Source: Marinoscillum sp. 108 (lineage in GTDB: Bacteria; Bacteroidota; Bacteroidia; Cytophagales; Cyclobacteriaceae). Taken from it: DNA of 64,000 bases. Position numbers and translations under genes: made by a program. Positions within the stretch are counted from its first letter, which is position 1. Each line of letters opens with the position of its first letter. The notes beneath the pieces are model-generated. The model was given only the letters and a program-made list of their open reading frames with translations, was not told where the DNA came from and did no database searches. The DNA lies in contig NZ_LR734808.1 in the NCBI RefSeq assembly GCF_902506655.1, positions 2,046,001 to 2,110,000 of the forward strand, in the 5' to 3' direction. This document shows, in pieces, positions 5,751 through 36,437 of the stretch.

Positions 5751-6884
5751 TTACTTCCCGACCACTCCGAGCACCGCTTGATGGGCTGGTTTGGGAGCCA
5801 AAGATCTATCGAACAACAGCGGATAGTCTGTTCTACCACGCGCAGGCCAGTTGTTTTTCCAGGATTGCCCATCGTGCACTCCCCACAAAGTAACCCTCGT
5901 GATGATGTCTTGATGCTTATGAAACAGCTCGAAAAGGTCCGCATATCTCTGAGCCAAAGCCATCTGCACAGAATCAGGCAAGCCATTTTTGTATGGGTTT
6001 GCCTCTGCATTATTTTCAAAGCTGGCTGATAGATCGGCGCCTTCTACATTTCGTGGGTTGGGTAACACTGTTATGTCGAGTTCGGTGATCATCACCTTTA
6101 GTCCTGCATTCCCAATTTTCAAAATACTGGTCTCGATTTCCTCTAAAGTTGGCCTGTCTAATCCCCAATGACCCTGCATCCCTATACCATCTATCCGCAA
6201 GCCCTTAGCTTTAATCGCTTTAGCTAGTTGCACGGCACCATCACACTTCTCTGTCCTGTTCATGCTATAATCATTGTAATAAAGTTCGGCCTCAGGATCA
6301 GCCATGGCTGCATACTCAAAGGCCTTGTATATGAAATCCACTCCTCCGATTTGGTAAAACAAGGACTCTCGAAAAGTACCATCATCATTGAGCGCCTCAT
6401 TCACCACATCATAGCCTCCAATCTTGCCCTGATAGCGGCCCATAATGGCATTGATGTGATCTTTCATCCGACCAAAGAGTGCCGTGCTGTCGATAAGATC
6501 ATTGTCTTCGTCCCGAAAAACCCATTCCGGTGTTTGATTGTGCCAAATAAGCGTATGCCCAACCATGAACTGATCATTTCTATCTGCCATCGCCACTAAC
6601 TTATCCGTATACTCGAAGTTGAAAGTATCAGGCTTCGGGTGCACATACATCCACTTCATAGCATTCTCTGGAGTGAGGCTACTAAACTCATTCCTGATAA
6701 GTGTAGATTCGGCAGAATCTTTCTCCAGGATTTGTCCCCAGCCCAGGGCTGCTCCGATATAAAAATCGTCCGCATAGGCGGTACGCAAAGTCGGTCCCAC
6801 CTTTTTCTCAGTCTGAGCACAGGACATCGTCAGGGTAAAAAACACCCCGGAAATAATCAAAAATTTTAAATCCTTCATTCTCAT
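5751..6884 (-). CDS. GH10 endo-1,4-beta-xylanase, lipoprotein
   Basis: A 377-residue GH10 enzyme cutting the xylan backbone. The N-terminus is a signal sequence with lipobox TMSC, so it is lipid-anchored. GH10 landmarks are in order: NAMKW, HTLIWHNQTPEW, the acid/base Glu163 in DVVNEAL, YYNDYS, GIGMQGHW, the nucleophile Glu268 in MITELDI, and TLWGVHDGQSW. Length is normal for a single catalytic domain with no binding module. It is the last gene of the eight-gene operon; its ATG overlaps the TAA of the upstream dehydrogenase gene by one base. The lipid anchor suggests it works on oligosaccharides at or inside the outer membrane, complementing the secreted GH10 at 13673-14902. Confidence 0.95.
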   Translation of the reverse strand: MRMKDLKFLIISGVFFTLTMSCAQTEKKVGPTLRTAYADDFYIGAALGWGQILEKDSAESTLIRNEFSSLTPENAMKWMYVHPKPDTFNFEYTDKLVAMADRNDQFMVGHTLIWHNQTPEWVFRDEDNDLIDSTALFGRMKDHINAIMGRYQGKIGGYDVVNEALNDDGTFRESLFYQIGGVDFIYKAFEYAAMADPEAELYYNDYSMNRTEKCDGAVQLAKAIKAKGLRIDGIGMQGHWGLDRPTLEEIETSILKIGNAGLKVMITELDITVLPNPRNVEGADLSASFENNAEANPYKNGLPDSVQMALAQRYADLFELFHKHQDIITRVTLWGVHDGQSWKNNWPARGRTDYPLLFDRSLAPKPAHQAVLGVVGK

Positions 6885-8464
6885 TATTTTTTCTTTAATT
6901 CACCATTTATCAACCTCCAGATATTGAGCGGGTTATGATCCCTCAACGCTAAGGGCAAGGAGGCCTGTGGGAAATCCTGGTAACATACCGGCCTCACAAA
7001 TCTTTTGATGGCCCCTGTCCCTACGGAGGTGGACTGAGGTGCTGTGGTAGCCGGGTAAGGACCTCCATGGACCATAGCTTGCCCCACCTCAACCCCTGTT
7101 GGGTAACCGTTGAATAGTAGTCGTCCCACCTTTCGTTCCAAAATATGAATCAGGTCTTTGTATTCCTCCAGGTCTGCATCGGTACCATGGATGGTGGCGG
7201 TCAAATGTCCCTGCATTTTTCTTGCTACCTCCAGCATTTGGTCTTTTCCCTCAGCTATGACACTCAAAGTGGACGGGCCAAACACCTCTTCCTCAAGACC
7301 CGACTGCCCTAAGAAATCAGTTGCTTTTGTTTTGAAAATTTTGGACGGTACCTGGTTTTTACCCTGTCCGGAAATTCCTTCGGAAACTATCTCCACCCCT
7401 GGAAAAGATGTCAACCTGTTCACCCCGGCCTCATAGTTATCCTTGATTCCTTCAGATAGCATAGTACCTGAGGCAGTTTTAGAAACCAGGTCTCCCATTG
7501 CTTCCAAAAGCTGACTTGTTTCTGTCGATTCACTAGCGATCACCAACCCAGGATTGGTACAAAACTGGCCTACCCCCATATTCAATGAGCCAACCAGACC
7601 TGAAGCCAGACCTTCACCACGAGCGCTCACGGCTCCTGGTAATAGGAATATCGGATTAGAGCTTCCCATTTCAGCAAAGACGGGAATTGGAGTATTACGC
7701 TGATTCGCTGCATCGAAGAGCGCTTTTCCTCCCCGAAAGGAGCCAGTAAATCCAACAGCCGTAATCCTGGGGTGCAACACAATAGCCATTCCGACCTCCA
7801 CTGAGGTCCCTTGTACCAGAGAGAAAACACCGTCAGGCATACCTGTTTTATTGGCTGCACTCACAATGGCTTGAGCTACCATCTCAGAGGTACCCGGGTG
7901 CAACGGATGTGCCTTCACTACCACGGGACAGCCCGCTGCCAGGGCAGAGGCCGTATCCCCTCCGGCTACAGAAAAGGCCAACGGGAAGTTACTCGCTCCA
8001 AAAATGCCCACCGGTCCCAAAGGAACCAGCATCTGCCTGATATCTGGCCGGGGAAGAGGTTGTCTATCGGGGATTGCCGTATCAATGCGCGCATCCACCC
8101 AGGAGCCCTCACGGACAAGGCTGGCAAACATTTTGAGCTGGTTGATGGTACGCATCCGCTCTCCGTTCAGGCGTGCGGCGGGAAGAGCAGTCTCTGACAT
8201 ACAGCGTTCGATCAGCTCATCGCCCAAAGCCCAAAGCTCATCCCCAATGGCCTCAAGGAAAAGCGCCCGATCCTCTGAAGACTGCTCTTTATATTCCTGA
8301 AAGGCGGCTTCAGCTTTCAATACTGCACTACCTACTTCAGCTTCTGTAGCTTCATAAAAGCTGATGGGTAACAGGTCTCCGGTAGCCGGATTAACGGCCC
8401 GAAAAGTGTTCCTACCCATCCCTGTTCGCTCTGATCCTATAAAATTTTGCCCCGTTAGTATCAT
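6884..8464 (-). CDS. Alpha-ketoglutarate semialdehyde (2,5-dioxovalerate) dehydrogenase
   Basis: A 526-residue aldehyde dehydrogenase of the ketoglutarate-semialdehyde type. Visible features are IFGASNFPLAFSVAGGDTAS, the VVVKAHPLHPGTSE cofactor region, GFTGSFRGG, the general-base Glu in FAEMGSSNP, and the catalytic Cys in GVGQFCTNPG. EMGSSNP in place of the common ELGG, and the long C-terminus ending with ALRDHNPLNIWR, are typical of this subgroup. It oxidises alpha-ketoglutarate semialdehyde to alpha-ketoglutarate, the final step of the Weimberg pentose pathway and also of L-arabonate and glucarate routes. The FAH-family and IlvD-type dehydratase genes just upstream supply the two preceding steps. 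It follows the FAH gene by 14 bases. Confidence 0.92.
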   Translation of the reverse strand: MILTGQNFIGSERTGMGRNTFRAVNPATGDLLPISFYEATEAEVGSAVLKAEAAFQEYKEQSSEDRALFLEAIGDELWALGDELIERCMSETALPAARLNGERMRTINQLKMFASLVREGSWVDARIDTAIPDRQPLPRPDIRQMLVPLGPVGIFGASNFPLAFSVAGGDTASALAAGCPVVVKAHPLHPGTSEMVAQAIVSAANKTGMPDGVFSLVQGTSVEVGMAIVLHPRITAVGFTGSFRGGKALFDAANQRNTPIPVFAEMGSSNPIFLLPGAVSARGEGLASGLVGSLNMGVGQFCTNPGLVIASESTETSQLLEAMGDLVSKTASGTMLSEGIKDNYEAGVNRLTSFPGVEIVSEGISGQGKNQVPSKIFKTKATDFLGQSGLEEEVFGPSTLSVIAEGKDQMLEVARKMQGHLTATIHGTDADLEEYKDLIHILERKVGRLLFNGYPTGVEVGQAMVHGGPYPATTAPQSTSVGTGAIKRFVRPVCYQDFPQASLPLALRDHNPLNIWRLINGELKKK

Positions 8465-8478
8465 GTCTTTTCGGTTGA

Positions 8479-9345
8479 TTATGCTACAAAATTGATGAGG
8501 GTGCCGATATGATCGATCGTAATCCTGATCTCATCGCCCTGCTGCAATGTAAATTCGTTAGGTGGTACTATCCCCGTTCCTGTCATAAGGTAGCAACCAC
8601 TTGGAAAGGAGGTTTCGAGTATTAGATAATGAACAAGGTCTTCAAATTTTCTTTTGATCTGGCTAATTTCTATCTGCCCGTGAAACATCTGCTTATCTCC
8701 TCTCAATATCTCCAGGTGGATCTCTGAATCCTCGGCCATAGGATCTTCAGAAACGTAAATACATGGGCCTACAGCAGCAGACTGGTCATAACATTTAGCC
8801 TGTGGCAGGTAGAGGGGATTCTCACCTTCTATATCACGAGAACTCATGTCATTGCCCGCTGTATAGCCTATGATCTTCCCTCCTGAACTGACCAAAAGGG
8901 TAAGCTCAGGCTCGGGTACATTCCATTTGGAATCCTTTCGGATATTAACTTTCCCCCCAGGACCTGCCGTACGGTAGGGCATGGCCTTCATAAAAAGCTC
9001 TGGTCGGTCAGCACTATATACCCTATCATAAAAATCGCCACCCCCGGAATCTTTGGACTCATCCATCCTGGCTTCCCGGCTTTTGTAATAGGTAACTCCC
9101 GATGCCCATATTTCCTGACGTCCTATAGGAGCAAGCAATTCACCCTTTAATACTTCAGCATCGTTTATCGGCCTTTTGACCGAAATCCTCTCATTTGCGT
9201 AAGCAAAGAGATCATCTCTGTTGATAAACTGATCCCAATCTTCATGAAAGGAATAACACTGCTCATCCTTTTCCACAAGGATGCAAGTTCTTGTTTTATA
9301 AATTTTCAAAACTTTCTCATTAGTTAGGTTAAACAAATGCACCAA
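8479..9345 (-). CDS. FAH-family dehydratase, probable 2-keto-3-deoxy-D-xylonate dehydratase (XylX-like)
   Basis: A 288-residue member of the fumarylacetoacetate hydrolase superfamily. Evidence is WASGVTYYKS, the metal-binding acidic residues in PEPELTLLV, IIGYTAGNDMSSRDIEGENPLYLPQAK, and the C-terminal TGTGIVPP block. The acidic residues at PEPE would hold a divalent metal. In Caulobacter XylX, members of this family convert 2-keto-3-deoxy-xylonate to alpha-ketoglutarate semialdehyde. The immediate neighbours, an aldonate dehydratase and the semialdehyde dehydrogenase, make that assignment the simplest; an acylpyruvase-type hydrolase is the alternative but would not fit the context. No signal peptide, so cytoplasmic. 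Confidence 0.85.
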   Translation of the reverse strand: MVHLFNLTNEKVLKIYKTRTCILVEKDEQCYSFHEDWDQFINRDDLFAYANERISVKRPINDAEVLKGELLAPIGRQEIWASGVTYYKSREARMDESKDSGGGDFYDRVYSADRPELFMKAMPYRTAGPGGKVNIRKDSKWNVPEPELTLLVSSGGKIIGYTAGNDMSSRDIEGENPLYLPQAKCYDQSAAVGPCIYVSEDPMAEDSEIHLEILRGDKQMFHGQIEISQIKRKFEDLVHYLILETSFPSGCYLMTGTGIVPPNEFTLQQGDEIRITIDHIGTLINFVA

Positions 9346-9390
9346 AGAATACTCATTACCTCAAAAGGTTCTACTCGAACTTTCGCATGT

Positions 9391-10725
9391 CTATACAAAA
9401 AAACTTAACAGCGTGAGCAAAATCATAGCAGAAAGACCAAGAACCGCCGTACCGACACTTTGCAGACGATAGCCCTGACTCACATTCATTCCGCTCATTT
9501 GAGTCACTACCCAAAAAAAACTATCATTGGCATGAGACACTACTGCAGAACCTGCCCCAATAGAGATCACCACCATGGCCTTTTCTATTTCTGTGTCCAT
9601 ACCCAAAACCAACATCAACGGAGCTATAATAGAAGCTGTAGTGGTCAAAGCAACAGTGGATGATCCCTGAGCCGTCTTGATCCCGGCAGCCACCATAAAT
9701 GGCAGCCAAAGTCCTATTCTGTAATCGGATGCGAAGCTCCCAAGAATTTCACCGATATCTGATGTCTGAAGCATTTTACCAAATGCTCCGCCTGCCCCTG
9801 TGATGAGAATGATCACAGAGCCGGTTTTCAACGCGTCGCCTACCCATCCGCCAGTACTCAGCATGTCTTTGTCCAGCTTTTTCGGTAGCAAAAGGGCTAG
9901 TAAAACACCTATAAATAGTGCCGTAACCGGATTGCCCAAAAAGAAGATAAAATCAACCAAAATACCGGTTCCAAATGGCTCTGTCGGGTAATCTGCGATA
10001 GACCTGAGCACAATGAGCAATATGGGTACCAGTATGGGCAAAAAAGATTTTATGGAAGATGGTGCTTCCGAGATTTTTTGTTGGATTTTCTCTCTGGTCT
10101 GCTCTGGCTGTGGGTCTATATAGACCTTTCCGGCATACGCTTTCGAAAAGAAAATAGCCACCACCAGCGCCCCGATACTTGTATAAAGGCCAATCAGAAT
10201 CACAATCCCCAAATCTGCTCCCACCAAACCAGCTGCAGTGATAGGGCCCGGTGTAGGTGGCACCATAGTGTGGGCGGCTGTAAGACCAAGTGAAAGCGCA
10301 ATAGCCGTCCCGGCCAAAGACACTCCAGCTTCCTTTGCCAAAGCTCGGTTCAGAGATGAAAGAATGATGAACCCACTATCGGCAAATACAGGAATGGATA
10401 CGATATACCCGATCACCCCCATGGCGAGGTGTACGCGCTTTTGGCCAACCACCCTCAGCACCTGACTGGCCAGGGCATAAGCACCTCCTGATTGCTCTAA
10501 AAAAGCACCTATAATAACACCTGAAATAATGATGATCCCGATTTTTCCGATGGTTTCCCCAAAGCCGATATTAATTGTCTGAATAATGGTCTCTGGTGCC
10601 ATCCCTGAGCAAAAACCAAAAAACAAACAAGCAACCAGTAAGGCCAGAAAAGGATGCAAAGAAAATCTACTAGTCGAAATGACTATAAGTAAAATACTCA
10701 GAATAATCAGTACAATAGTCAGCAT
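9391..10725 (-). CDS. GntP-family aldonate:H+ symporter, probable xylonate importer
   Basis: A 444-residue integral membrane protein with about 12 hydrophobic segments. It matches the GntP/gluconate permease family: FALHP-like FSLHPFLALLVAC at the N-terminus, GFGETIGKIGIIIISG, IPVFADSGFIIL, PTPGPITAAG, KTAQGSSTVALTTTASI and SHANDSFFWVV. The family imports aldonates (gluconate, ketodeoxygluconate and the like) with protons across the inner membrane. It lies between the sugar-acid dehydratase and the FAH-family gene, so D-xylonate or L-arabonate is the likely cargo. A paralogue at 32892-34220 sits in the uronate operon, showing that the family was recruited twice here. Confidence 0.93.
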   Translation of the reverse strand: MLTIVLIILSILLIVISTSRFSLHPFLALLVACLFFGFCSGMAPETIIQTINIGFGETIGKIGIIIISGVIIGAFLEQSGGAYALASQVLRVVGQKRVHLAMGVIGYIVSIPVFADSGFIILSSLNRALAKEAGVSLAGTAIALSLGLTAAHTMVPPTPGPITAAGLVGADLGIVILIGLYTSIGALVVAIFFSKAYAGKVYIDPQPEQTREKIQQKISEAPSSIKSFLPILVPILLIVLRSIADYPTEPFGTGILVDFIFFLGNPVTALFIGVLLALLLPKKLDKDMLSTGGWVGDALKTGSVIILITGAGGAFGKMLQTSDIGEILGSFASDYRIGLWLPFMVAAGIKTAQGSSTVALTTTASIIAPLMLVLGMDTEIEKAMVVISIGAGSAVVSHANDSFFWVVTQMSGMNVSQGYRLQSVGTAVLGLSAMILLTLLSFFV

Positions 10726-10749
10726 TATGGAGAGGTTTTAGGGTGATTA

Positions 10750-12474
10750 TTAATGCAAGTCTCTGGTTACTTCCGACCCTGATGAGCCTTTGAGGAAATC
10801 AAAATCGCAACCCTTATCGGCTTGCTCCACATGCTGAATGAACATTTTTGTATAGCCCCTTTCAGCCACGGGTTTAGGTTTCACCCAATGCTTTCTCCGC
10901 TCTGCCAACTCTTCATCCGACACATGCAGGGTGAGACGCTTACCTTTCACATCAAGTTCTATCAAGTCACCATTCCTCACAAGGGCCAGATTGCCACCAA
11001 TGGCAGCCTCTGGTGACACGTGTAAAACCACGGTACCATAGGCTGTACCGCTCATACGCCCATCGGAGATTCTTACCATATCCTTCACGCCTTTTCTGAG
11101 CAATTTCTCCGGCAGGTCCATATTACCTACCTCCGGCATACCCGGATAACCCACCGGCCCCACACCTTTGAGGATCATCACGGAAGTCTCATCTATTTCA
11201 AGCGCCGGGTCATCGATCCTTTGGTGATAATCCTCGATCGTCTCAAAAACAACTGCTTTCCCTTTATGCTGCATAAGTGCCGGAGTAGCTGCCGAGGGTT
11301 TGATCATGGCTCCATTTTCGCAAAGGTTCCCTTTCAGTACCACGATTCCCGCGTTCTCCTTGATTGGAGCGTCGACAGTGCCAATGACTTCCCGATCATA
11401 GCATGGTGCATTGCGACAATTATCTCCGATTGTTTTTCCATTGGCTGTGATGGCTCCAATATGAATCCGTTCTCTGATCTCATCAATTACTACCGGAAGA
11501 CCTCCTGCATAGAAAAAGTCTTCCATCAGGTACTTTCCGGAAGGCATGAGATTAACTAACATAGGCATCTGGCTACCCAACCGATCAAAGTCTTCAATAT
11601 CCAGATCCACGCCGATTCGTCCGGCGATGGCCGTCAGATGGATGGGCATATTAGTGGAGCCTCCTACTGCAGAATTGACTTTGATGGCATTTTCGAAAGC
11701 CTCTCTGGTAAGGATTTTAGATAGTTTTAAGTCTTCACGGACCATTTCAACAATCCTATTTCCCGCCAGATGAGCCATTACCTTTTTGCGCGAGTCTACA
11801 GCCGGAATGGCTGATGCTCCGGGAAGAGTGAGCCCCAATGCCTCTACCATCACCCCCATAGTGGAGGCTGTGCCCATGGTCATACAATGACCCGCACTTC
11901 TGGACATGCAGGACTCAGCTTCTACCATATCCTTTTCTGTGATGGTGCCTTCCTTTAGCCCCTCCGAAAGCTGCCATGTAAGTGTACCTGATCCCACATC
12001 CTTACCACGCCACTTACCGTTGAGCATAGGCCCTCCCGGCACCACAATGGTTGGTAAATCAACGCTGGCTGCACCCATAAGGGTAGAGGGGGTAGTCTTA
12101 TCGCATCCAGTCAAGAGTACGATACCATCTAGTGGGTTGGCCCTGATGGTCTCTTCGACATCCATACTCACCAGATTTCTCCAAAGCATGGTGGTAGGCT
12201 TCATAATGGTCTCGCCCAAGGACATGACTGGGAACTCTAGCGGAAAACCTCCGGCTTCATAAATTCCCCGCTTTACGATTTCTGCAAACTCCCTGAGGTG
12301 GGCATTACATGGGGTAAGGTCAGACCAAGTATTGCAAATGCCAATGACAGGCTTCCCCCGAAACATATGATCAGGATGACCCTGATTTCTCAACCAGCTG
12401 CGGTGGACAAACCCCATTTTATCATCCTTGCCAAACCACTCCTCACTTCGTAGTTTTTCCTTTTTATCGCTCAT
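10750..12474 (-). CDS. IlvD/Edd-family sugar-acid dehydratase (D-xylonate / L-arabonate dehydratase)
   Basis: A 574-residue member of the IlvD/Edd family, of the subgroup with arabonate and xylonate dehydratases: WFGKDDKMGFVHRSW at the start, GICNTWSDLTPCN and LTGCDKTTPS (iron-sulfur cluster Cys residues), SRSAGHCMTMGTAS (third Cys), and the DGRMSGTAYGTVVLHVSPEAA C-terminal block. It removes water from the aldonate to give the 2-keto-3-deoxy acid. D-xylonate and L-arabonate specificities cannot be separated by eye, and both would converge on alpha-ketoglutarate semialdehyde. It starts 33 bases after the Tat-exported oxidoreductase, directly linking oxidation and dehydration of the same sugar. 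Cytoplasmic. Confidence 0.92.
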   Translation of the reverse strand: MSDKKEKLRSEEWFGKDDKMGFVHRSWLRNQGHPDHMFRGKPVIGICNTWSDLTPCNAHLREFAEIVKRGIYEAGGFPLEFPVMSLGETIMKPTTMLWRNLVSMDVEETIRANPLDGIVLLTGCDKTTPSTLMGAASVDLPTIVVPGGPMLNGKWRGKDVGSGTLTWQLSEGLKEGTITEKDMVEAESCMSRSAGHCMTMGTASTMGVMVEALGLTLPGASAIPAVDSRKKVMAHLAGNRIVEMVREDLKLSKILTREAFENAIKVNSAVGGSTNMPIHLTAIAGRIGVDLDIEDFDRLGSQMPMLVNLMPSGKYLMEDFFYAGGLPVVIDEIRERIHIGAITANGKTIGDNCRNAPCYDREVIGTVDAPIKENAGIVVLKGNLCENGAMIKPSAATPALMQHKGKAVVFETIEDYHQRIDDPALEIDETSVMILKGVGPVGYPGMPEVGNMDLPEKLLRKGVKDMVRISDGRMSGTAYGTVVLHVSPEAAIGGNLALVRNGDLIELDVKGKRLTLHVSDEELAERRKHWVKPKPVAERGYTKMFIQHVEQADKGCDFDFLKGSSGSEVTRDLH

Positions 12475-12507
12475 AAGCGCTCATCTGTTTCGGGTTGAAA
12501 AAATAAG

Positions 12508-13641
12508 TCATACCAAATGCAAAATATTGGGGATTCCTTTCAGTGAAACTGGCTTGCCTGCCGCTGCAGACTCATAAATCTTATCAATGATGAACATATC
12601 CCGCTGGCCCATTTCACCACGAACCGTGCTCTGCTTGTCCTTTAAAATACATGTAGCAAAATCATCCATCTGGAGTGCCTGCTGATTGACAGCCGGGAAG
12701 TTCATAGCGCCTAAATGGGTCCTGCCTTTCAGGCCACCATATGAATAAGCAGGCGCCAACTCCCAGTTCCCCTCCTGAGCCTGTACTTTCAAATAATTAG
12801 AACTCTCTTCGTAGCTCGTCCTCATTTTGGCATTGATTCCCGTAGGGAAATCAAATTTGACATCCAGTGTACCCTCTACAGCGCCATAAAACGCTTTATC
12901 GACAGTGGTATCCGTAGCTTGTAGTGCGATGGGCAACTGACCGAGGGTATAGATGGTGCTTTGTATGGCATAGATACCCACGTCCATAAGTGGGCCCCCG
13001 CCTGCCATTTCTTTGTCCAGGCGCCAGCGACTTTTGTCTCTCAGAGGAAAAGCAAAACCAGCGTCTGATTCGAGTACCTTCCCAAATACCTGCCGCTGCC
13101 CCAGTCTCATGACCTCCAGGTTGTGAGGTTCGAAATGCAATCGATAGCCGATGGAAAGTTTCTTTTCAGCCTTGCGGCATGCATCAATCATCCTTTGACA
13201 ATCTTCGTATTTGGTGGCCATCGGCTTTTCACAAATCACATGCTTGCCTGCCTGAGCAGCCCGAATCACGAACTCCGCGTGCATGGAATTGGGGAGGACC
13301 ACGTACACAATGTCTATTTCATCATTGTTCGAGATCTCATCAAAGTTGTCATAGTTATAGACATTCTTAGATGGGATAAGATACTGGTCCACCCACGAAT
13401 CTGCTTTCGAGGGGGTGCCTGTGACAATTCCCGCCAGGTAGCAGTTTTCTGTCCTTTCCAAAGCCGGTGCCAGTTGACCCGTAGCATAACCGCCTAACCC
13501 CACCAGTGCCACACCGAGTCCTCTTTTCTCACCTGCCCTACCCGAAGGACCTGAAAGAAGCCCAAGAGTGGTCAAACTGCTGGCCACCATGATGCTCCCT
13601 GTCGACTTGGCGGTATTGGATAAGAAATGTCTTCTTTTCAT
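12508..13641 (-). CDS. Tat-exported Gfo/Idh/MocA oxidoreductase (GFOR / aldose oxidoreductase-like)
   Basis: A 377-residue protein whose N-terminus has a twin-arginine signal (RRHFL at residues 3-7 followed by an Ala/Ser/Leu-rich stretch), so it is folded with cofactor and exported to the periplasm. The Rossmann fold is at GVALVGLGGYATGQL, then VYVVLPNSMHAEF and CEKPMATKYEDCQ with the catalytic Lys of the EKP motif, and IGYRLHFEPHN, which resembles the corresponding block of glucose-fructose oxidoreductase. Such enzymes retain NADP tightly and oxidise one aldose to a lactone while reducing another sugar. In this operon the best substrate is D-xylose, giving xylonolactone for hydrolysis and GntP import. 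A lactonase gene is not seen in the window. The export signal is directly visible; the xylose role is inferred. Confidence 0.82.
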   Translation of the reverse strand: MKRRHFLSNTAKSTGSIMVASSLTTLGLLSGPSGRAGEKRGLGVALVGLGGYATGQLAPALERTENCYLAGIVTGTPSKADSWVDQYLIPSKNVYNYDNFDEISNNDEIDIVYVVLPNSMHAEFVIRAAQAGKHVICEKPMATKYEDCQRMIDACRKAEKKLSIGYRLHFEPHNLEVMRLGQRQVFGKVLESDAGFAFPLRDKSRWRLDKEMAGGGPLMDVGIYAIQSTIYTLGQLPIALQATDTTVDKAFYGAVEGTLDVKFDFPTGINAKMRTSYEESSNYLKVQAQEGNWELAPAYSYGGLKGRTHLGAMNFPAVNQQALQMDDFATCILKDKQSTVRGEMGQRDMFIIDKIYESAAAGKPVSLKGIPNILHLV

Positions 13642-13672
13642 TGGACTAATGGTTTAGGTTCGGGGGACTCCC

Positions 13673-14902
13673 CTACTTAATGACGATCTTTCTCAGTTCG
13701 CTTTTGGAAGTCCCTTGTACTTTGAGTAAATAGATTCCGCTGGTTAAGTTCAGTGAAAGGCTCACCTCCTGCCCCTCCATTGGGGTAAAATCAGCCACCA
13801 GGTGACCACTCAAGTCATACAGTGTCACCTGATGCACAGGCTCTTTCGACCTGACCGTTAATTGGCCGTCAACCACCGGGTTAGGGAACAGCTCCAGATT
13901 CGAATGATTTTTCCATCCCAAAACCGTACGGTCTATGGGTGTGGAAGCATACTCTCTAAGCCAGGTCAATGCCGGTCGCTCCGTTCCATCGGTATTGATC
14001 AAATAAGCCTTCTGTGCGGTACGCCACATCCCACTACGCCACCCCCAGAGTGTGACTCCTATCACCGATTCGTGCTCCCAAAACAGTGGGAAAACTCGCT
14101 TGTACTCATCCAGCTGAATCTGATCTGTGGATCCATCTATATCCATCTCAGTCACCATGATCGGCAGGCCTGTATCACCCAGTTTATCGAGTTGATCGGT
14201 AATGGTGGTGGAGCTTCCAGTGGTAGAAAAGGCATGTGCCTGTACGCCGATTACATCTATCAGATTCTCTGCCTGCAACAGCTCTATGATTCTCTTGTAT
14301 TTATTGGCATTACTGCTACTGCTCACAATGTTGTACTCATTGATCACCAGTTTGGCATTTGGGAAACGCTCTCTAGCCATGGTGAAGGCGGTGACGATCC
14401 AATCGTACCCGGAAGCTCCTCTACCCCCCAACGCATCTATGTAATTGCCATTGCCGGCACCACTCGGAGGATCATTGATAGGCTCGTTGACCACTTCCAA
14501 GTAATCCACATCGGGGTATCGCTCTGCCACAGCATCCATCCATTCGGTGATTTCCTCCAGCTGCTCCTCCACCGGCAAATCTTCGATCCAGGAGGGTTGC
14601 TGATTTCCCCAGATCAACACATGAAACCTAAACACAAAATCGTTTTCCTTGGCAAAATTGTAAGCCGCATCCAATGTGGCCCAGTCATAATTATCCCGCG
14701 TCCTTTCCACGCTTCCCCATTTTCCGGCATTTTCGGGCGTTACCTGATTCCAGTAAGTCTCATATCCGCTTAGCTGAGAGCTACTGTATACATTTCCAAG
14801 AAACTTCTCCATCCCATCGGCTATGGGCTTTTCCTGACTCACCGCCATCTGCCCCATGACCACCAACCCAATCAGCAACAATATACTTTTACTCATCTTC
14901 AT
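13673..14902 (-). CDS. GH10 endo-1,4-beta-xylanase with T9SS sorting domain
   Basis: A 409-residue secreted xylanase. A signal peptide (to about residue 22) is followed by a GH10 domain with NAGKW, HVLIWGNQQPSW, acid/base Glu140 in EVVNEP, INEYN, VQAHAFS, nucleophile Glu252 in VTEMDID and TLWGW. The last 75 or so residues form a T9SS C-terminal sorting domain: LFPNPVVDGQL, VTLYDLSGHLV and SGIYLLKVQG. The enzyme should therefore pass the outer membrane through the type IX system and stay on the surface or be released, acting on polymeric xylan. It is the second gene of the operon, 39 bases after GH3 and 31 bases before the oxidoreductase. Confidence 0.95.
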   Translation of the reverse strand: MKMSKSILLLIGLVVMGQMAVSQEKPIADGMEKFLGNVYSSSQLSGYETYWNQVTPENAGKWGSVERTRDNYDWATLDAAYNFAKENDFVFRFHVLIWGNQQPSWIEDLPVEEQLEEITEWMDAVAERYPDVDYLEVVNEPINDPPSGAGNGNYIDALGGRGASGYDWIVTAFTMARERFPNAKLVINEYNIVSSSSNANKYKRIIELLQAENLIDVIGVQAHAFSTTGSSTTITDQLDKLGDTGLPIMVTEMDIDGSTDQIQLDEYKRVFPLFWEHESVIGVTLWGWRSGMWRTAQKAYLINTDGTERPALTWLREYASTPIDRTVLGWKNHSNLELFPNPVVDGQLTVRSKEPVHQVTLYDLSGHLVADFTPMEGQEVSLSLNLTSGIYLLKVQGTSKSELRKIVIK

Positions 14903-14941
14903 AAAATATAATCTGTTATAATCACCTCAAATTTCCTATCG

Positions 14942-17125
14942 TTATTTCACCTTCAAATTCACAGAAACAGGAACAGACGCACCCAGTTCTAGACTTCTGC
15001 TGGTGGGCAGAGACCCGCCAACGTGTATTTTGAAATCACCCTTCTCCAGAATGGTTTCACCCTTCTCATTAACCACCTGAAGCATTTCAGGGTTTATGGT
15101 GAAGGAAATGCGCTGTGACTCACCTGCCGCAAGTTTCACCCTGCGAATGGACTGTAAAGAAAAAAGCGGAGTACTCACACTGGCTTCTACATCCGTCACG
15201 TACAGCTGCACCACTTCCTCTACATCAAAATCCCCTTCGTTGGTCACTAGAACCGAAACCTCAGCAGACTCTCCTGACTTTATTACCGACCGGGTGACGG
15301 CAGGGGTCCCATACTTGATTTTGGAGTAGTGTAGTCCAAAACCAAAGGGATACATCGGCTCGGCTGTCATGTATTTGTAAGTTCTGCCCATCATACTATA
15401 ATCCTCATATGCTGGCAATTGATCCAGGCTCTTTGGAAAAGTAATCGGCAATCGCCCGGAAGGTGAGGCTTTACCGAAAACAATATCAGCGATGGCATTA
15501 CCACCTTCTTCACCGGGGTACCACACCAATAACACTGCGTCAGCTATTTCGTGAACTTCAGAAAGATTCATGGGACTTCCACCAGTGACAATGGCTATCA
15601 CAGGCTTGTCATTGTCGGCTTTAAGTTTTTTCAGGTAATCAATCTGATTGGCAGGTATATCATAATCCAGGCGGTCACCATAATGCGCGGAGGCAATGGA
15701 CTCCCCTTCCTCTCCTTCAATAAATCCCGTGATTCCCATTACCATCAAAGTCGCATCTGAAGTATGTGCCACCCCAGACGACCAGTCCACGGGATTTACA
15801 TTCGGCCGATCGAGCAACGTGCCAGCTCTATAATGCACCTGACTACCAGAAGCTACCGCAGCGGTGATGCCTTCTAAAACCGTGACCATATCAGGGTTTA
15901 CCCCGTAATAATTTCCAATGAGTGGATCGATACCAGCCGCATTGGGACCTGTGACATAGTAGCGCGACAGGTCATTGGCCAAAGGCAACACTCCATTATT
16001 TTTGAGCAAAACAATAGACTTGACGGCAGCTTCCCGTGCCAACGCCCTGTGGGCAGGACTGTTCACCACATCCAGCGAAATGGCATTATATGGATTGGCA
16101 TTGCTATCATCAAACATGCCCAGCTTGAACCTCGTCTCCAGCAACTTGGTAAGGGCCACATCAATCGTCTTTTCCTCGATCAACCCCTGATTCACCGCCT
16201 CCACCAGTGCCGGGAAGGTACTCCCGCAGTTGAGGTTTACCCCACTTTCGAGTGCCAAAGCTGAAGCATCTACCTGATTTTCTACAGTGCCATGTCCATT
16301 CTCTGAATAGAAATCCACAATGGCCCAGCAGTCACTCACGATGTGCCCATCAAAGTCCCATTCACCCCGAAGTACCTCCTGAAGCAAATAATTGTTGGCA
16401 CAGCAGGGCTCATCGTTGGTGCGGTTGTAAGCACACATTACGGCCTCCACATCCGCCTCCACCAATGCTTTAAAAGCTGGAAGGTATGTTTCATAAAGAT
16501 CCTTTTTAGAAACAACAGCATTGAACTCATGGCGCAAACGCTCCGGACCACTGTGCACCGCAAAATGCTTGGCACAAGCCGCGGTTTTCAAGTATCGGGA
16601 ATCTTCTCCCTGAAGTCCTTTCACAAAGGATACCCCCAATCTGGTAGTCAAAAATGGATCTTCACCGTAAGTTTCCTGGCCGCGCCCCCACCTGGGGTCA
16701 CGGAAAATATTGATGTTCGGTGTCCAAAAGGTGAGTCCATTGTATCGGTTGTAATAACCCTTTTTCAGTGATGCATTATACATGGCCCGAGCCTCATCAG
16801 AGATGGCTGAAGACACCCGGTAAGCCAGCTCCTCATCAAAGGTGGCTCCAAGTCCAATGGCTTGCGGAAATACCGTAGCCACACCAGACCGCCCTACTCC
16901 GTGCAAGGCCTCATTCCACCATTCATAAGGCGGGATGTTCAACCGTTCGATCGCGGGGCTGTTCATCATCATTTGCTGAACCTTCTCCTCAAGAGTAAGT
17001 CTGCTCACCAAATCCTTAGCCCGGGCCGCATTGGTAAGAGAAGTTTCCAGATAATCCTGGCTTTCTGCATTGTGACTAATGGCTGCCAGCACAATCAATA
17101 AAAAGGATGCTAATTTTTTCATCAT
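14942..17125 (-). CDS. GH3 glycosidase, probable beta-xylosidase
   Basis: A 727-residue GH3 enzyme without PA14 insert. A cleavable signal peptide (to about residue 22, no lipobox Cys) predicts the periplasm. Landmarks: PYEWWNEALHGVGRSG, RDPRWGRGQETYGEDP, KHFAVHSGPE, nucleophile Asp in IVSDCWAI, the second-domain block EGEEGESIA, and a fibronectin III-like end (VVQLYVTDVEASVSTP). The WWNEALHG and RDPRWGRGQETYGED blocks are typical of xylosidase/arabinosidase-type GH3. It is the first gene of the eight-gene minus-strand operon, so its transcript start should lie in the 17126-17491 divergent region. It probably yields the free xylose used by the oxidoreductase two genes downstream. Confidence 0.93.
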   Translation of the reverse strand: MMKKLASFLLIVLAAISHNAESQDYLETSLTNAARAKDLVSRLTLEEKVQQMMMNSPAIERLNIPPYEWWNEALHGVGRSGVATVFPQAIGLGATFDEELAYRVSSAISDEARAMYNASLKKGYYNRYNGLTFWTPNINIFRDPRWGRGQETYGEDPFLTTRLGVSFVKGLQGEDSRYLKTAACAKHFAVHSGPERLRHEFNAVVSKKDLYETYLPAFKALVEADVEAVMCAYNRTNDEPCCANNYLLQEVLRGEWDFDGHIVSDCWAIVDFYSENGHGTVENQVDASALALESGVNLNCGSTFPALVEAVNQGLIEEKTIDVALTKLLETRFKLGMFDDSNANPYNAISLDVVNSPAHRALAREAAVKSIVLLKNNGVLPLANDLSRYYVTGPNAAGIDPLIGNYYGVNPDMVTVLEGITAAVASGSQVHYRAGTLLDRPNVNPVDWSSGVAHTSDATLMVMGITGFIEGEEGESIASAHYGDRLDYDIPANQIDYLKKLKADNDKPVIAIVTGGSPMNLSEVHEIADAVLLVWYPGEEGGNAIADIVFGKASPSGRLPITFPKSLDQLPAYEDYSMMGRTYKYMTAEPMYPFGFGLHYSKIKYGTPAVTRSVIKSGESAEVSVLVTNEGDFDVEEVVQLYVTDVEASVSTPLFSLQSIRRVKLAAGESQRISFTINPEMLQVVNEKGETILEKGDFKIHVGGSLPTSRSLELGASVPVSVNLKVK

Positions 17126-17491
17126 TAAGGGATTTAAATTTTATATGACCACCCGGATATTTTTTACTAAATATATCCCTCCCTCAACTCATTGCGGGAA
17201 AGGCTTAACAATCCGTAGGGTATTCATTAACAAACGGTGCCTACATCAACAAGAAATGCACGCTCATTCACTCTCATTTCAAGCCTCATGTGATTTAAAA
17301 ATGAAGCAACATCAGCCCTGATTTCAGAGAAGCTTTAGACATTCATTGTGGCAAAGTAGCACAGATTCCTAAATTTTAAACAATCGATTGCGTAAAAATT
17401 TCAGTTTTACCACACATCTCACTACTTTAGCCAAATAGCCGTGTTTGCAATTGTCAGATACGCGATTGATTCAACTCAAACCAGACCCCAC
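17126..17491. promoter_or_regulatory. Divergent control region between xylan operon and GH67 operon
   Basis: This AT-rich, gene-free stretch separates the eight-gene minus-strand operon from the GH67-uxuA pair on the plus strand, so both promoters and any shared operator should lie here. TACTTTAG at about 17422-17429 resembles the Bacteroidota -7 element (TAnnTTTG) on the plus strand but is not exact, and I could not find a convincing -33 partner. No hairpin or riboswitch-like structure stood out. The role is inferred from gene orientation. Confidence 0.45.
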
Positions 17492-19648
17492 GTGAAATAT
17501 CTATTTAGCACTTTTTTGTTATTCGCACTTTTCATCCTTCCAGCATCAGCGGAAACAGGATATGAACTCTGGCTCAGGTACCATAAGATCCAAAATACCG
17601 AGCTCCTCAATGGCTATCTCGGCCAAATCAAGTCGTTTAGCGTAGTGGGTAGTTCGGCAACTCATGATGTGATCCGAAATGAGTTGAGTGCTGGCTTGAG
17701 TGGTCTGCTGGGTCAGCCATTCGAGCCATCCACCAGCAGCAAGGCTTCCTTGCTAGCTGGTCTATCCGATGAGCCGACTATCGCCCAATACTTATCTGAG
17801 TCAGAGTTGACACAGCTGGGTAAAGAAGGTTATCTGGTCAAGGCCATCTCACAAAAGGAGTCATCGCGATTTCTCATCACCGCCAAAGACCCGGTGGGCC
17901 TGCTCTATGGCACCTTTCATTTTCTGAAGCTCCTCCAAACCAACCAAAACCTGGCTTCCATTAATATTCTTGAAAACCCCAAAGTGGACATCAGAATCCT
18001 CAACCACTGGGACAATCTGGACAGAACTTCGGAGCGTGGGTATGCAGGATTTTCTATCTGGGACTGGCACAAACTTCCTGACTTTCTGGATCAACGATAC
18101 ATTGACTATGCGCGGGCGAATGCCTCCATTGGGCTCAATGCCACGGTGCTCACCAATGTGAATGCCAATGCATTGGTACTCACACCTGCTTATCTGGAGA
18201 AGGTGAAGGCATTGGCCGATCTTTTCAGGCCGTATGGAATCAAAGTCTACCTGACTGCTCGCTTCAGTGCCCCCATAGAGATTGGTGGGCTGGACACAGC
18301 AGATCCACTCAACTCAGACGTGACCAATTGGTGGGAGGAAAAGGTCAAAGAAATCTATGAGCATATTCCCGATTTTGGGGGCTTTCTGGTGAAAGCCAAC
18401 TCTGAGGGCCAACCGGGCCCTCAAAACTACGGTCGCTCGCATGCGGAAGGTGCCAATATGATGGCAGATGCATTGAAGCCTTTTGGTGGCGTGGTGATGT
18501 GGCGTGCTTTTGTGTACAGCAGTGAAGAGCCTGATGACCGGGCCAAACAAGCCTATTCAGAATTCAATCCTTTGGATGGCTCTTTCCGACCCAATGTTTT
18601 GGTACAGGTGAAAAATGGAGCGATTGATTTCCAACCACGAGAACCTTTTCACCCCCTTTTTGGCGCCATGCCCAAAACCCCCGTGATGATGGAGTTTCAA
18701 ATCACCCAGGAGTACCTGGGTCAGGCTACCCAACTGGTCTATCTGGCCCCTATGTGGAAGGAATGCCTCGATGCTGACACCTATGTCAACGGTCAGGGGT
18801 CAACGGTTTCTAAAGTGGTTGATGGTTCGCTACATGATTATAGTATCACCGGAATTGCCGGGGTTGCCAACACTGGGACTGACATCAACTGGACCGGTCA
18901 CCCTTTTGCGCAAGCCAACTGGTATGCCTTCGGACGCCTGGCGTGGAATCCGGATCAGACTGCCCAGCAGATCGCAGAAGATTGGATTCGAATGACGTTT
19001 AATAATCATCCAAAAACGATAGCTGCGCTAAGCGATATGATGATGAACTCCTGGGAAGCCTCCGTGAATTACATGACGCCACTGGGGCTGCATCACCTGA
19101 TGGGTACGGGACATCACTACGGTCCGGCACCCTGGGTCAGTAACCTGTCCAGAGCTGACTGGACACCAGTGTATTATCACAAGGCTGATGCCTTTGGGAT
19201 CGGGTTTGACCGATCGGAGAATGGTAGCAATGCGGTGAGCCAATACGCACCGGAAGTGGCCAAAATCTTTAATTCTAAAGACGAAATCCCGGAGAAATTC
19301 CTCCTATGGTTTCATCATGTGGGTTGGGATTTTGAAATGAACTCTGGTAGGACCCTTTGGAACGAGTTGGCCTTCCGCTATCAGGATGGGGTGAACACCG
19401 TCAGAAAAATGCAGGAACAGTGGCAATCCGTACAACCCAAAATTGACGATGAGCGCTTCAAAAGCGTTCAAATGTTACTCACCATACAAGAAAAGGAGGC
19501 CGTTTGGTGGAAGGACGCCTCACTGAGCTACTTCCAGACTTTCTCCAAGAGACCCATTCCTGATAAGGTAGAGCCTCCCAAAAGATCGCTGGAGTATTAT
19601 CAATCTTTGAAATTCCCTTTTGCGCCGGGTATACGTCCGAGCTGGTAA
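17492..19648 (+). CDS. GH67 alpha-glucuronidase (xylan side-chain removal)
   Basis: I prefer the GTG at 17492 because it begins directly with a signal peptide (FLLFALFILPASA then ETGYELWLRY); the GTG at 17441 adds 17 residues of odd sequence before it. GH67 blocks are continuous: the N-terminal beta domain, WDNLDRTSERGYAGFSIWDW, KANSEGQPGPQNYGRSHAEGAN, VMWRAFVY, DFQPREPFHPLFG and FQITQEYLG. The conserved Asp in AIDFQPREP and Glu in PREP correspond to the family's catalytic acids. It removes 4-O-methyl-glucuronate from the non-reducing end of xylo-oligosaccharides in the periplasm. The mannonate dehydratase 19 bases downstream handles the uronate branch. Length (718 residues) is normal. Confidence 0.94.
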   Translation: MKYLFSTFLLFALFILPASAETGYELWLRYHKIQNTELLNGYLGQIKSFSVVGSSATHDVIRNELSAGLSGLLGQPFEPSTSSKASLLAGLSDEPTIAQYLSESELTQLGKEGYLVKAISQKESSRFLITAKDPVGLLYGTFHFLKLLQTNQNLASINILENPKVDIRILNHWDNLDRTSERGYAGFSIWDWHKLPDFLDQRYIDYARANASIGLNATVLTNVNANALVLTPAYLEKVKALADLFRPYGIKVYLTARFSAPIEIGGLDTADPLNSDVTNWWEEKVKEIYEHIPDFGGFLVKANSEGQPGPQNYGRSHAEGANMMADALKPFGGVVMWRAFVYSSEEPDDRAKQAYSEFNPLDGSFRPNVLVQVKNGAIDFQPREPFHPLFGAMPKTPVMMEFQITQEYLGQATQLVYLAPMWKECLDADTYVNGQGSTVSKVVDGSLHDYSITGIAGVANTGTDINWTGHPFAQANWYAFGRLAWNPDQTAQQIAEDWIRMTFNNHPKTIAALSDMMMNSWEASVNYMTPLGLHHLMGTGHHYGPAPWVSNLSRADWTPVYYHKADAFGIGFDRSENGSNAVSQYAPEVAKIFNSKDEIPEKFLLWFHHVGWDFEMNSGRTLWNELAFRYQDGVNTVRKMQEQWQSVQPKIDDERFKSVQMLLTIQEKEAVWWKDASLSYFQTFSKRPIPDKVEPPKRSLEYYQSLKFPFAPGIRPSW

Positions 19649-19667: not shown

Positions 19668-20840
19668 ATGCATTTAATGGAACAAACCATGCGATGGTTC
19701 GGCCCCAAAGATCCGGTAAGTCTGGCGAACATCAGACAGGCAGGATGTACCGGGGTGGTCACCGCCTTGCATCAAATTCCGGTCGGGGATATATGGCCCG
19801 TGGAGGAGATAGAGATCAGAAAAAGGGAGATTGAGGCCGCCGGCATGACCTGGACAGTGATAGAAAGCCTGCCAGTGCATGAAGACATCAAAAAGCAAAG
19901 TGGGGACTACAAGCGATACATTGAAAATTACAAAGTCAGTCTTCGAAATGTTGCCACCTGCGGACTGAAGGTGGTCACCTACAATTTCATGCCCATACTC
20001 GATTGGGTGCGCACCAACCCATTTCATATCCTCCCCAATGGCTCCAGTGCCCTTCGATTTGAAAAAGCTGCTTTCATAGCCTTTGACTTATTTTTACTGA
20101 AAAGACCAAACGCCGAAAAAGACTATAACGAAGATGAAATACGATCGGCCGAACTGCGACTCAAGTCGATGGACGAAGCAGAAAAACAAGCACTCTATAA
20201 AAATCTACTCCTGAGTCTGCCGGGCAGTGAAGAAGCATTCACACCGAAGGCAGTGCTCTCAGCGCTCGAAACCTATGCACACATAGATACCCCTAAGCTC
20301 AAAGAGCACCTGTTTCATTTCCTAAGGGAGGTGGTGCCGGTAGCTGAAGAAGTAGGCCTGAAAATGGCCATTCATCCGGATGATCCGCCGTATTCCGTAT
20401 TGGGGCTACCCCGAATAGTCAGTACAGAGCAGGATGTCAGGGAGCTGATCAATAGTGCACCCTCACCGGCCAATGGACTGTGCTTTTGTACCGGATCTTT
20501 CGGTGCACGAGCGGATAATGACCTGGTAGGGATGCTTCAACGTCTGGGTGAGCATGTCCATTTTTTGCATTTGAGAAATACCAAAAGGGATGCTGAGGGC
20601 AACTTTGAAGAGGCCAACCACCTGGACGGTGATACGGATATGGTGGCCGTGGTGAAAGAGGTGGTTCACCTGATGAACCGCCGACAGATTAGTCTGCCTA
20701 TGAGGCCCGATCACGGGCATCAGATGCTGGATGACCTGAAGAAAACCACTTATCCTGGCTACTCAGCCATCGGCCGCCTGAAAGGTCTGGCAGAGCTGAG
20801 AGGTGTGGAGCGGGCGGTGGTGTATGGGGTTACAACCTAG
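19668..20840 (+). CDS. uxuA: Mannonate dehydratase (UxuA), copy 1
   Basis: A 390-residue cytoplasmic enzyme converting D-mannonate to 2-keto-3-deoxy-D-gluconate. Conserved blocks are [36 protein letters not shown], the metal-binding [21 protein letters not shown] and [12 protein letters not shown]. It forms a two-gene unit with GH67, so glucuronate freed from xylan is processed next to its release. No uronate isomerase lies in the window. The second copy at 34303-35496 is clearly paralogous by eye but is in another operon with a mannonate oxidoreductase. Confidence 0.96.
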
Positions 20841-31748: not shown

Positions 31749-32888
31749 TCACCCTAGCTCCCCCTGGCCCATTGACAACAAATGGCCGATCTGCTCGCCT
31801 ATCCGGATCAGGTTCTCGCGGGTCTGCTTCATAGCAGATTCTACATCTCCGGGGCCATTACCAATGGACAGCAATACCTGAAAATATTTCTTCATCTCTA
31901 CCGGAGTATTCAATGGCACCTTACCGGCCAGCCCAATTACAGGGATGCCTAACGCCTTTGCTCTGACAGCCACTCCCATGGGCCCTTTGCCACGAAGGGT
32001 TTGTTCATCCAGACTTCCTTCGCCGGTGATGATCAGGCTGGCTTTTTGTGCTGCCGCTTCAAAAGACGTCACCCTGATGAATTCATCGATCCCATTCACC
32101 AGACTGGCTCCCAAAAAGGCATGAAGGCCTGCCGAAACACCTCCCGCAGCTCCGCCATGAGGCACGTCCATTTCCAGACCATGCTCCCGTAAGGCTACGG
32201 CTCTGAGCCTGGTCAATGACTCCTCCAACATCAGCACTTCGTCGGGTGTAGCACCCTTTTGGGGTCCAAAAACGGAAGCAGCACCTTCTTCACCCAACAA
32301 CGGATTGTCCACATCACAAAGCAGCACAAACTCACAATCGGTAATGCGCTGATCCACCTGATTGATCTCAATATGGGCCAAATCCACCAACGTTTCCGCT
32401 GTAGTCAGCGGATCGTTACCTTCATCTAAAAACTGCACGCCCAATGCGCTCAAAATACCCATCCCTCCATCCACAGTCGCTGAGCCACCGAGTGTCAGGA
32501 TAATTTTCCTTGCTCCGGCATCCAGAGCTGCCAATATCAATTCACCTGTGCCCAATGAAGACGTCTCCAATGGATTAAGTTCGTCGGGTTTTAGCAACCG
32601 AATCCCTGAGGCGTTAGCCATTTCAATGATGGCAGTATGCCCATTTTCAATCAAACCAAAGGAAACGTTGATTTTTCTTCCGAGTGGATCATGGACCATT
32701 ACATTCATCATTTCGCCACCACATTTCTGTACAATGAGCTCACCTGTGCCATCGCCCCCATCGGCTATGGGAAAGCACTCGGTGGTGCATTTAAGTTGAC
32801 TAGTGATGAGGCCGGTCTCAATGGCACTGGCTACCTCCCCGGCAGACAGGCTGTTTTTAAAGGCATTGGGAGCTATGAGAATGTGCAT
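31749..32888 (-). CDS. Glycerate kinase (GarK/GlxK type)
   Basis: A 379-residue glycerate kinase of family type 1: MHILIAPNAFKNSLSAGEVA at the start, PIADGGDGTGE, the IILTLGGSATVDGGMGILSALG block, PHGGAAGGVSAGLHAFLG, and ITGEGSLDEQTLRGKGPMGVA. It phosphorylates glycerate to a phosphoglycerate for glycolysis. It ends the operon DUF4861-SDR-UxuA-GntP-kinase; the start lies three bases after the permease stop, so they are translationally close. Glycerate is not a normal intermediate of the mannonate route, which makes its presence informative. Confidence 0.93.
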   Translation of the reverse strand: MHILIAPNAFKNSLSAGEVASAIETGLITSQLKCTTECFPIADGGDGTGELIVQKCGGEMMNVMVHDPLGRKINVSFGLIENGHTAIIEMANASGIRLLKPDELNPLETSSLGTGELILAALDAGARKIILTLGGSATVDGGMGILSALGVQFLDEGNDPLTTAETLVDLAHIEINQVDQRITDCEFVLLCDVDNPLLGEEGAASVFGPQKGATPDEVLMLEESLTRLRAVALREHGLEMDVPHGGAAGGVSAGLHAFLGASLVNGIDEFIRVTSFEAAAQKASLIITGEGSLDEQTLRGKGPMGVAVRAKALGIPVIGLAGKVPLNTPVEMKKYFQVLLSIGNGPGDVESAMKQTRENLIRIGEQIGHLLSMGQGELG

Positions 32889-32891
32889 TTT

Positions 32892-34220: not shown

Positions 34221-34302
34221 AGAGGGAATTTACGGTGTGCCGTGGCTGTCTCCAAAACGTTGGCCATCAAAACCTCGAAATTCTACTGATCTGAGCAATT
34301 GC

Positions 34303-35496: not shown

Positions 35497-35499
35497 TGT

Positions 35500-36348: not shown

Positions 36349-36437
36349 AAATTTTCTTATTGGTTGATATTAAAAATGGTTAGAAGAGCATTGCCTGCAA
36401 AGAGCTGCTTCTCTACCGCTTTGATTGCTTATAAAAC

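Follow-up and report, generated by a model that had tools for sequence, protein, structure and literature searches.

Which way does the xylose of xylan take in a bacterium whose xylanase genes stand in one row with genes for pentonate breakdown, and which enzyme would carry out the first oxidation? This question is raised by eight genes at positions 5751–17125 of a 64,000-nt stretch of contig NZ_LR734808.1 of Marinoscillum sp. 108 (the window, i.e., the whole stretch analysed). They form a real and coherent operon with respect to gene content, gene order, kinship and recurrence; substrates, compartment, regulation and co-transcription are what we infer from these features. We consider it fairly probable that the operon encodes a glucuronoxylan-linked, split branch of the Weimberg type beside the XylE-XylA-XylB route, with periplasmic oxidation of xylose and import of xylonate by a GntP permease.

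Operon and proposed pathway

The genes are as follows:

14942–17125, minus strand: GH3 glycoside hydrolase, probable beta-xylosidase with signal-like start, 727 amino acids (Pfam, NCBIfam, PDB match)
13673–14902, minus strand: GH10 endo-xylanase with tail of type A for the type IX secretion system (T9SS), 409 amino acids (Pfam, NCBIfam)
12508–13641, minus strand: Gfo/Idh/MocA oxidoreductase of the GFOR/AAOR group with start of the twin-arginine translocation (Tat) type, 377 amino acids; proposed for periplasmic D-xylose oxidation
10750–12474, minus strand: IlvD/EDD-family pentonate dehydratase, 574 amino acids (NCBIfam, PDB matches)
9391–10725, minus strand: GntP-family permease, 444 amino acids; proposed D-xylonate importer (Pfam, NCBIfam)
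8479–9345, minus strand: FAH-family 2-keto-3-deoxy-D-pentonate dehydratase (start at TTG 9345 or 9309)
6884–8464, minus strand: NADP-type aldehyde dehydrogenase, 526 amino acids; proposed alpha-ketoglutaric semialdehyde dehydrogenase (KGSADH; Pfam, PDB)
5751–6884, minus strand: GH10 endo-xylanase, lipoprotein-like, 377 amino acids (Pfam; start read by eye)

According to the list of open reading frames, these genes fill the interval on the minus strand with intergenic gaps of 39, 31, 33, 24, 45, 14 and −1 bases (the last being a 1-base overlap), in agreement with the gaps of at most 45 bases described in an earlier, sequence-only reading of this DNA. One gap could be wider, since the FAH reading frame opens with TTG at 9345 and the start residue of its relatives corresponds to a second TTG (9309–9307) located 36 bases further in, so that the true distance between the GntP and FAH genes may be about 81 bases. 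Strand and spacing make a single transcript for all eight genes likely; scans for consensus promoters and terminators remained at chance level (20 vs 17.9 and 13 vs 11.0 expected, respectively). The grouping as such exceeds chance, because the genes for IlvD, GntP, FAH and aldehyde dehydrogenase are found next to one another again in other members of the Bacteroidota.

The enzyme classes named in the sequence-only reading were recovered by Pfam, each above cut-off (GH3 N-terminal domain, 156.9 bits; GH10, 213 and 317.8; GFO_IDH_MocA, 99.5; ILVD_EDD_N, 371; GntP, 332.8; FAA_hydrolase, 59.7; Aldedh, 155.8), and NCBIfam agrees. The GH3 protein has the xylan 1,4-beta-xylosidase 7vc6 as top PDB match and reaches 816.9 bits with the NCBIfam model xylosidase_Xyl3A, below its cut-off of 1250. 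The N-terminus of the GH10 protein at 5751–6884, MRMKDLKFLIISGVFFTLTMSC, resembles a lipoprotein start by eye.

A conversion of pentose via pentonate, 2-keto-3-deoxypentonate and alpha-ketoglutaric semialdehyde to alpha-ketoglutarate fits this enzyme set at the family level, and IlvD, FAH and aldehyde dehydrogenase together point to a C5 acid. Judging from families and export signals, the two exported GH10 xylanases and the GH3 xylosidase would free D-xylose outside the cytoplasm, where the Tat-exported oxidoreductase would convert it to xylonolactone or xylonate in the periplasm. Xylonate would then be imported by the GntP permease, an activity demonstrated for another GntP protein. Homology and co-occurrence suggest that the IlvD-type dehydratase forms 2-keto-3-deoxy-D-xylonate from xylonate, that the FAH-family dehydratase converts the latter to alpha-ketoglutaric semialdehyde, and that the aldehyde dehydrogenase yields alpha-ketoglutarate. 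The branch may be under control of a LacI-family regulator which also covers the GH67 gene. Thus, the xylan-to-alpha-ketoglutarate pathway postulated previously retains its fitting enzyme set, its setting in a glucuronoxylan locus and its own aldonate-type permease, but not the role of an alternative to isomerase and kinase (see below).

Substrate and first oxidation

The IlvD/EDD dehydratase scored 929 bits with NCBIfam PRK06131 (cut-off 539) and matched the PDB entries 8ej0 (841 bits), 5j83 (764) and 5oyn (460); 9evv, kin of 5j83, is titled L-arabinonate dehydratase, and 5oyn we take to be the D-xylonate dehydratase of Caulobacter. The FAH protein belongs to the same FAH subfamily as an archaeal enzyme (43 % identity over 216 residues), presumably part of a D-arabinose pathway. 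For the aldehyde dehydrogenase, the nearest solved chains are NADP enzymes (1eyy, 3v4c), and the permease reaches 274.6 bits with the gluconate-symporter model TIGR00791, just below the cut-off of 292.75.

The dehydratase could also be taken to indicate that the cassette serves L-arabinose from arabinoxylan via the L-arabinonate route and not D-xylose, since it approaches the cut-off of the L-arabinonate dehydratase model PRK13016 (858.7 vs 882 bits) and is closer to chains of that enzyme than to 5oyn. We regard this as quite improbable. L-Arabinonate dehydratase was employed to produce 2-keto-3-deoxy-D-pentonate (D-KDP) from D-xylonate (PMC6336799), so that the clade of the dehydratase leaves the substrate undecided, and a comparison of several such enzymes reports that members of the FAH family act on D-KDP and those of the DHDPS family on the L-isomer (PMC7374468). 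Moreover, no arabinofuranosidase family was found by Pfam among the eight genes, and araA is located elsewhere in the genome (C1:1383759). In the related locus L042, the cassette is divergent from genes for GH51, AraB, AraD and AraA, so arabinose would be served there by a route of its own. With an FAH protein of the D-2-keto-3-deoxypentonate type, genes for GH67 and UxuA adjoining the operon and araA at a distance, D-xylose is the likeliest substrate.

The oxidoreductase begins with MKRRHFL, a Tat-like motif by eye, of which RR-x-F is invariant in five of five aligned oxidoreductases, and TatC is encoded in the genome. Tat export had been proposed in the sequence-only reading, and the Tat-like start was found; its consequence, a first oxidation outside the cytoplasm, had not been drawn. 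By sequence and by fold (structure model with a mean predicted local distance difference test score of 74, built on an alignment of four sequences), the closest relatives are the aldose-aldose oxidoreductase (AAOR) of Caulobacter and GFOR of Zymomonas, well ahead of other Gfo/Idh enzymes. The first step is therefore probably periplasmic and catalysed by a GFOR/AAOR-type enzyme. Among NCBIfam models, the D-xylose 1-dehydrogenase Gfo6 (NF041392) ranked highest with 189 bits, below its cut-off of 350. The two characterised references pair apart from all Bacteroidota proteins in both phylogenetic trees, placing the oxidoreductase outside their clade. In the 28-row tree, the oxidoreductases of loci L041, L042, L053, L138 and L085 form one clade (support 100/99); of these, L085 is a GH10/GH115 locus with a SusD-like lipoprotein nearby (SusD by eye) and no FAH gene in view.

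A true aldose dismutase of the AAOR kind, converting D-xylose with bound NADP to xylonate and xylitol at a ratio of 1:1, would still feed xylonate to the operon while the polyol is lost or otherwise used, and would thus represent a compatible variant of the proposed branch. AAOR and GFOR are indeed the closest characterised relatives, and AAOR formed equimolar xylonate and xylitol from xylose in yeast (PMC4628093). In that case, half of the xylose would be lost as xylitol, and one could no longer speak of a simple Weimberg pathway. On the other hand, identities of only 41 % to AAOR and 39 % to GFOR (which share 51 % with each other), the position outside their clade and the lack of a polyol dehydrogenase among the eight genes make a dismutase somewhat unlikely. 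The oxidoreductase may instead do other work, e.g., oxidation of glycosides or of the inositol type, with xylonate coming from elsewhere and the operon only scavenging aldonates. Homologues are frequent in the order Cytophagales (135 of 291 genomes at E 1e-60), 16 of 20 loci fetched around good matches contain no other cassette or xylan genes, and among the best 80 of 589 confirmed FAH loci, a homologue occurs in only three, one of them just 40 % identical, so that most loci combining FAH, IlvD and GntP have no such gene in view. Against such a function stand the clear lead of GFOR/AAOR among the matches by sequence and fold and the one oxidoreductase clade that tracks xylan/pentonate loci; we consider it unlikely. 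Beyond the branch proposed here, one may speculate that the Bacteroidota clade of Tat-exported oxidoreductases represents dedicated periplasmic xylose oxidases, which would operate by sugar-to-sugar dismutation without quinone or pyrroloquinoline quinone (PQQ), with xylonate drawn in by GntP and converted to alpha-ketoglutarate, and with a polyol or reduced sugar as second product. We consider this unlikely; if true, the AAOR type would thereby obtain a physiological role for the first time, and the Weimberg route a new start.

Several observations weigh against the proposed branch. The dehydratase is, as described above, nearer to L-arabinonate dehydratase chains than to 5oyn, and the aldehyde dehydrogenase attains only 97 and 109 bits with the NCBIfam KGSADH and dioxovalerate models, far below their cut-offs. 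The permeases of L041, L042 and L053 share just 30–33 % identity with a GntP of the window (that of L042 passes the gluconate symporter cut-off), so that no single orthologous permease is conserved across these loci; the subtype found in the window is present in L090, L116 and L132 (56–67 %). No lactonase was found by Pfam among the eight operon genes, to which this search was limited; hydrolysis of xylonolactone can occur spontaneously (PMC11252243). Characterised relatives of the AAOR/GFOR group reduce a second sugar as they oxidise the first, a coupling unneeded in a plain Weimberg route. The oxidoreductase of the window sits on a long branch as sister to the xylan-linked clade with support of only 83/77 in the 28-row tree, and a first tree of 32 rows left its place unresolved; omission of four rows with less than 30 % identity and very long branches moved it to this weak sister position. 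Furthermore, the presence of xylA, xylB and XylE means that the oxidative route may be minor, and G630, the one further genome of the genus covered by the searches, contains xylA and yielded no FAH or oxidoreductase match at E 1e-60, i.e., the operon appears patchy within the genus.

Recurrence, isomerase route and regulation

The operon had been regarded as unusual for Bacteroidota. FAH homologues, however, are present in 34 of 395 sampled genomes of the phylum (E 1e-20) and in 84 of 291 of the order (E 1e-60), and xylan-linked copies recur. A unique gene order can be ruled out, since the IlvD-GntP-FAH-aldehyde dehydrogenase cassette recurs widely. Proximity of FAH and oxidoreductase genes, on the other hand, is rare: they lie within a few kb in at least three of the 291 order genomes (that of strain 108, G049 and G186; coordinates compared by eye, with L105 being on the same contig as G186 and counted once) and, outside the order, in G292 (L053) and a metagenome-assembled genome (MAG) of Chitinophagaceae (L138). 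Within the best 80 FAH loci, IlvD occurs at 60 % identity or more in 18, of which 12 contain GntP compared to 4 of the 62 without IlvD. Genes for GH10, GH67 or GH115 are found in 6 of 18 loci with and 3 of 62 without IlvD (Fisher one-sided p 0.003, the loci being phylogenetically non-independent); one of these six rests on a weak GH10 match (L090, 26 % identity). Restriction to the 68 loci of at least 12 kb gives 6 of 17 vs 2 of 51. Hence, a tie to GH10, GH67 or GH115 is lacking in most loci with the cassette.

Locus L042 encodes in a row an NrtR-type regulator, aldehyde dehydrogenase, IlvD, FAH, GntP, oxidoreductase, LacI, GH67, SDR and UxuA. In L041, aldehyde dehydrogenase, IlvD, FAH, GntP and oxidoreductase are adjoined by GH115, with no GH67 in view. 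L053 (oxidoreductase, IlvD, SGL lactonase, FAH, GntP) and L138 (FAH, IlvD, GntP, SGL, oxidoreductase, with a GH10 gene upstream) include SGL lactonases with lipoprotein- or signal-like starts by eye, which fits an oxidation outside the cytoplasm.

Relatives of the cassette were also seen farther afield. The cassette locus of a Saprospiraceae MAG encodes an exported Gfo/Idh protein of more distant kinship (40 %; L132, 1042–2136), which falls outside the xylan-linked clade. Close FAH homologues occur in Acidobacteria and in a KSB1 MAG (L107, L123, L144, L146, L149, L159 and others), the KSB1 locus L149 having the complete IlvD-GntP-FAH-aldehyde dehydrogenase order. Plasmid pRUNSL05 (38.8 kb) of Runella slithyformis carries FAH and aldehyde dehydrogenase genes of the operon's type beside a gene of the altronate dehydratase family (L089, 9004–13183), which may represent a plasmid-borne D-arabinonate route.

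A Weimberg operon in place of isomerase and kinase is not compatible with the genome, which encodes XylA and XylB together with an NrtR-type regulator on contig 8 and an XylE symporter left of the window. The latter exceeds the cut-off of the XylE equivalog model (735.6 vs 608 bits) and has a match in the solved D-xylose symporter. Across the order, xylA was found in 172 of 291 genomes, namely in 81 of 84 with FAH and in 91 of 207 without; the three FAH genomes lacking an xylA match (G490, G535, G657) are assemblies of at least 290 contigs. All 27 further FAH-bearing genomes, hand-chosen from FAH loci, contain xylA. Replacement of the isomerase pathway is thus ruled out, and the oxidative branch would run in parallel.

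The following features surround the operon:

845–3472, plus strand: second GH3 with PA14, Xyl3A-like; a homologue directly precedes FAH-aldehyde dehydrogenase-IlvD-GntP in L113, L125 and L165
17381–17390: palindrome CAATCGATTG in the spacer between the divergent GH3 and GH67 genes, a candidate operator of the LacI family
17441–19648, plus strand: GH67 alpha-glucuronidase, divergent neighbour (Pfam)
19668–20840, plus strand: UxuA mannonate dehydratase of the glucuronate branch (Pfam, NCBIfam)

Xylan hydrolases grouped here hence comprise two GH10, two GH3 and one GH67 protein. Left of the window, locus L179 contains SusC-SusD, XylE (ending 7.8 kb from the window), a D-mannonate oxidoreductase of the SDR type and LacI (C1:2039728–2040780, ending 5.2 kb from the window), followed by GH9, a T9SS-tailed deacetylase, a 646-residue gene and then the GH3 gene at 845–3472. 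No SusC/SusD pair is located within the operon, and the pair left of the window, beside FecR, BNR/CBM9 and GH2-type genes, may be part of a different locus.

Joint control of the operon and the GH67 glucuronidase by a LacI-family regulator is suggested by the distribution of the palindrome. Its single exact occurrence in the window is near chance. CAATCGATTG is present at 11 places in the genome, two of them in the operon neighbourhood (C1:2040896 and 2063381). In L179, LacI is flanked by all four sites that deviate by no more than one base (13537, 13615, 14818 and, exact, 14896); with up to two mismatches, the number of sites (12 vs 11.5 expected) corresponds to chance. Exact copies precede IlvD-GntP-FAH-aldehyde dehydrogenase and lie between LacI and GH67 in L132, the LacI of which has its best match in the genome of strain 108 with the LacI left of the window (51 %). 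The exact palindrome was not found by regular expression in L041, L042, L053, L092, L113, L134, L137 and L138; the xylAB locus contains no exact copy either, but three with one mismatch. As signature of one regulator, the palindrome is weakened by two of its copies: one immediately precedes the matched region of a different LacI gene (C1:2261370 and 2261432), the other a SusC gene of contig 4. It rather resembles a general LacI-type core, i.e., a family-type motif. The copy on contig 4, about 140 bases ahead of SusC-SusD (L181, 6271; G000 C4:70270), is the only other one with the stricter TWANN context.

Two further clusters are present in the window. A second uronate/aldonate cluster at 31749–37649 (minus strand) encodes glycerate kinase, another GntP permease, a second UxuA, a D-mannonate oxidoreductase of the SDR type (442.6 bits, cut-off 281) and a DUF4861 protein. 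A separate stretch at 41606–61780 resembling a polysaccharide utilisation locus encodes GH2, GH88-like, SusD, SusC and a hybrid two-component regulator as well as a weak pectin-lyase-like match, a T9SS-tailed polysaccharide-lyase-like protein and PL14.

Comparison with known systems

Among the titles and abstracts listed by literature searches in open-licence PMC papers, subscription papers being outside their scope, there was no description of a split xylose oxidation route in Bacteroidota. Closest to one comes a KGSADH homologue (there termed xylA) of a 'Bacteroidetes bacterium' that was tested in yeast (PMC11775059). The sections considered of a marine xylan study refer to xylose isomerase and not to xylonate (PMC12125979), and those of a study on root Bacteroidota name no xylose route (PMC11892949). 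If the proposed branch is right, xylan-eating Bacteroidota would use two xylose roads, XylE-XylA-XylB and a periplasmic oxidation leading to alpha-ketoglutarate without loss of carbon, and AAOR/GFOR-type enzymes would gain a testable physiological setting. An annotation restricted to xylA/xylB would overlook the oxidative branch.

The Caulobacter operon xylXABCD encodes an IlvD/EDD pentonate dehydratase, an FAH-family KDP dehydratase and an aldehyde dehydrogenase together with a cytoplasmic SDR dehydrogenase and a lactonase. The operon described here shares the first three functions and differs by its exported oxidoreductase, permease and xylanases and by an IlvD protein of another branch. With Caulobacter AAOR (CC1225) and Zymomonas GFOR, the oxidoreductase has in common the fold, the lysine of CEKP, the tyrosine of GIY and Tat-type export, differing from both by an identity of only about 40 % and a position outside their clade. 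A gluconolactonase gene and one of unknown function form a putative operon of three genes with CC1225, the role of which was called unclear (PMC4628093); the Caulobacter Weimberg operon is named in PMC6475665.

In Pseudomonas taiwanensis VLB120, the Weimberg route is split across the inner membrane, the first step being catalysed by a ubiquinone-coupled PQQ glucose dehydrogenase, and transport of D-xylonate by GntP was demonstrated by knock-out and complementation (PMC11252243). As in this bacterium, the operon would combine periplasmic xylose oxidation and xylonate import (GntP being among the carriers there) with dehydratases and KGSADH inside the cell. In contrast to the PQQ enzyme, the first step is assigned here to a Tat-type Gfo/Idh protein encoded in one operon with GH10 and GH3 genes, which would make it a candidate for an enzyme dedicated to periplasmic xylose oxidation, one option considered for the joint use of glucose and xylose by Pseudomonas (PMC11252243). 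Compared to the known split Weimberg route, the pathway type itself is thus not new; the first enzyme, the operon shared with xylanases and the phylum are.

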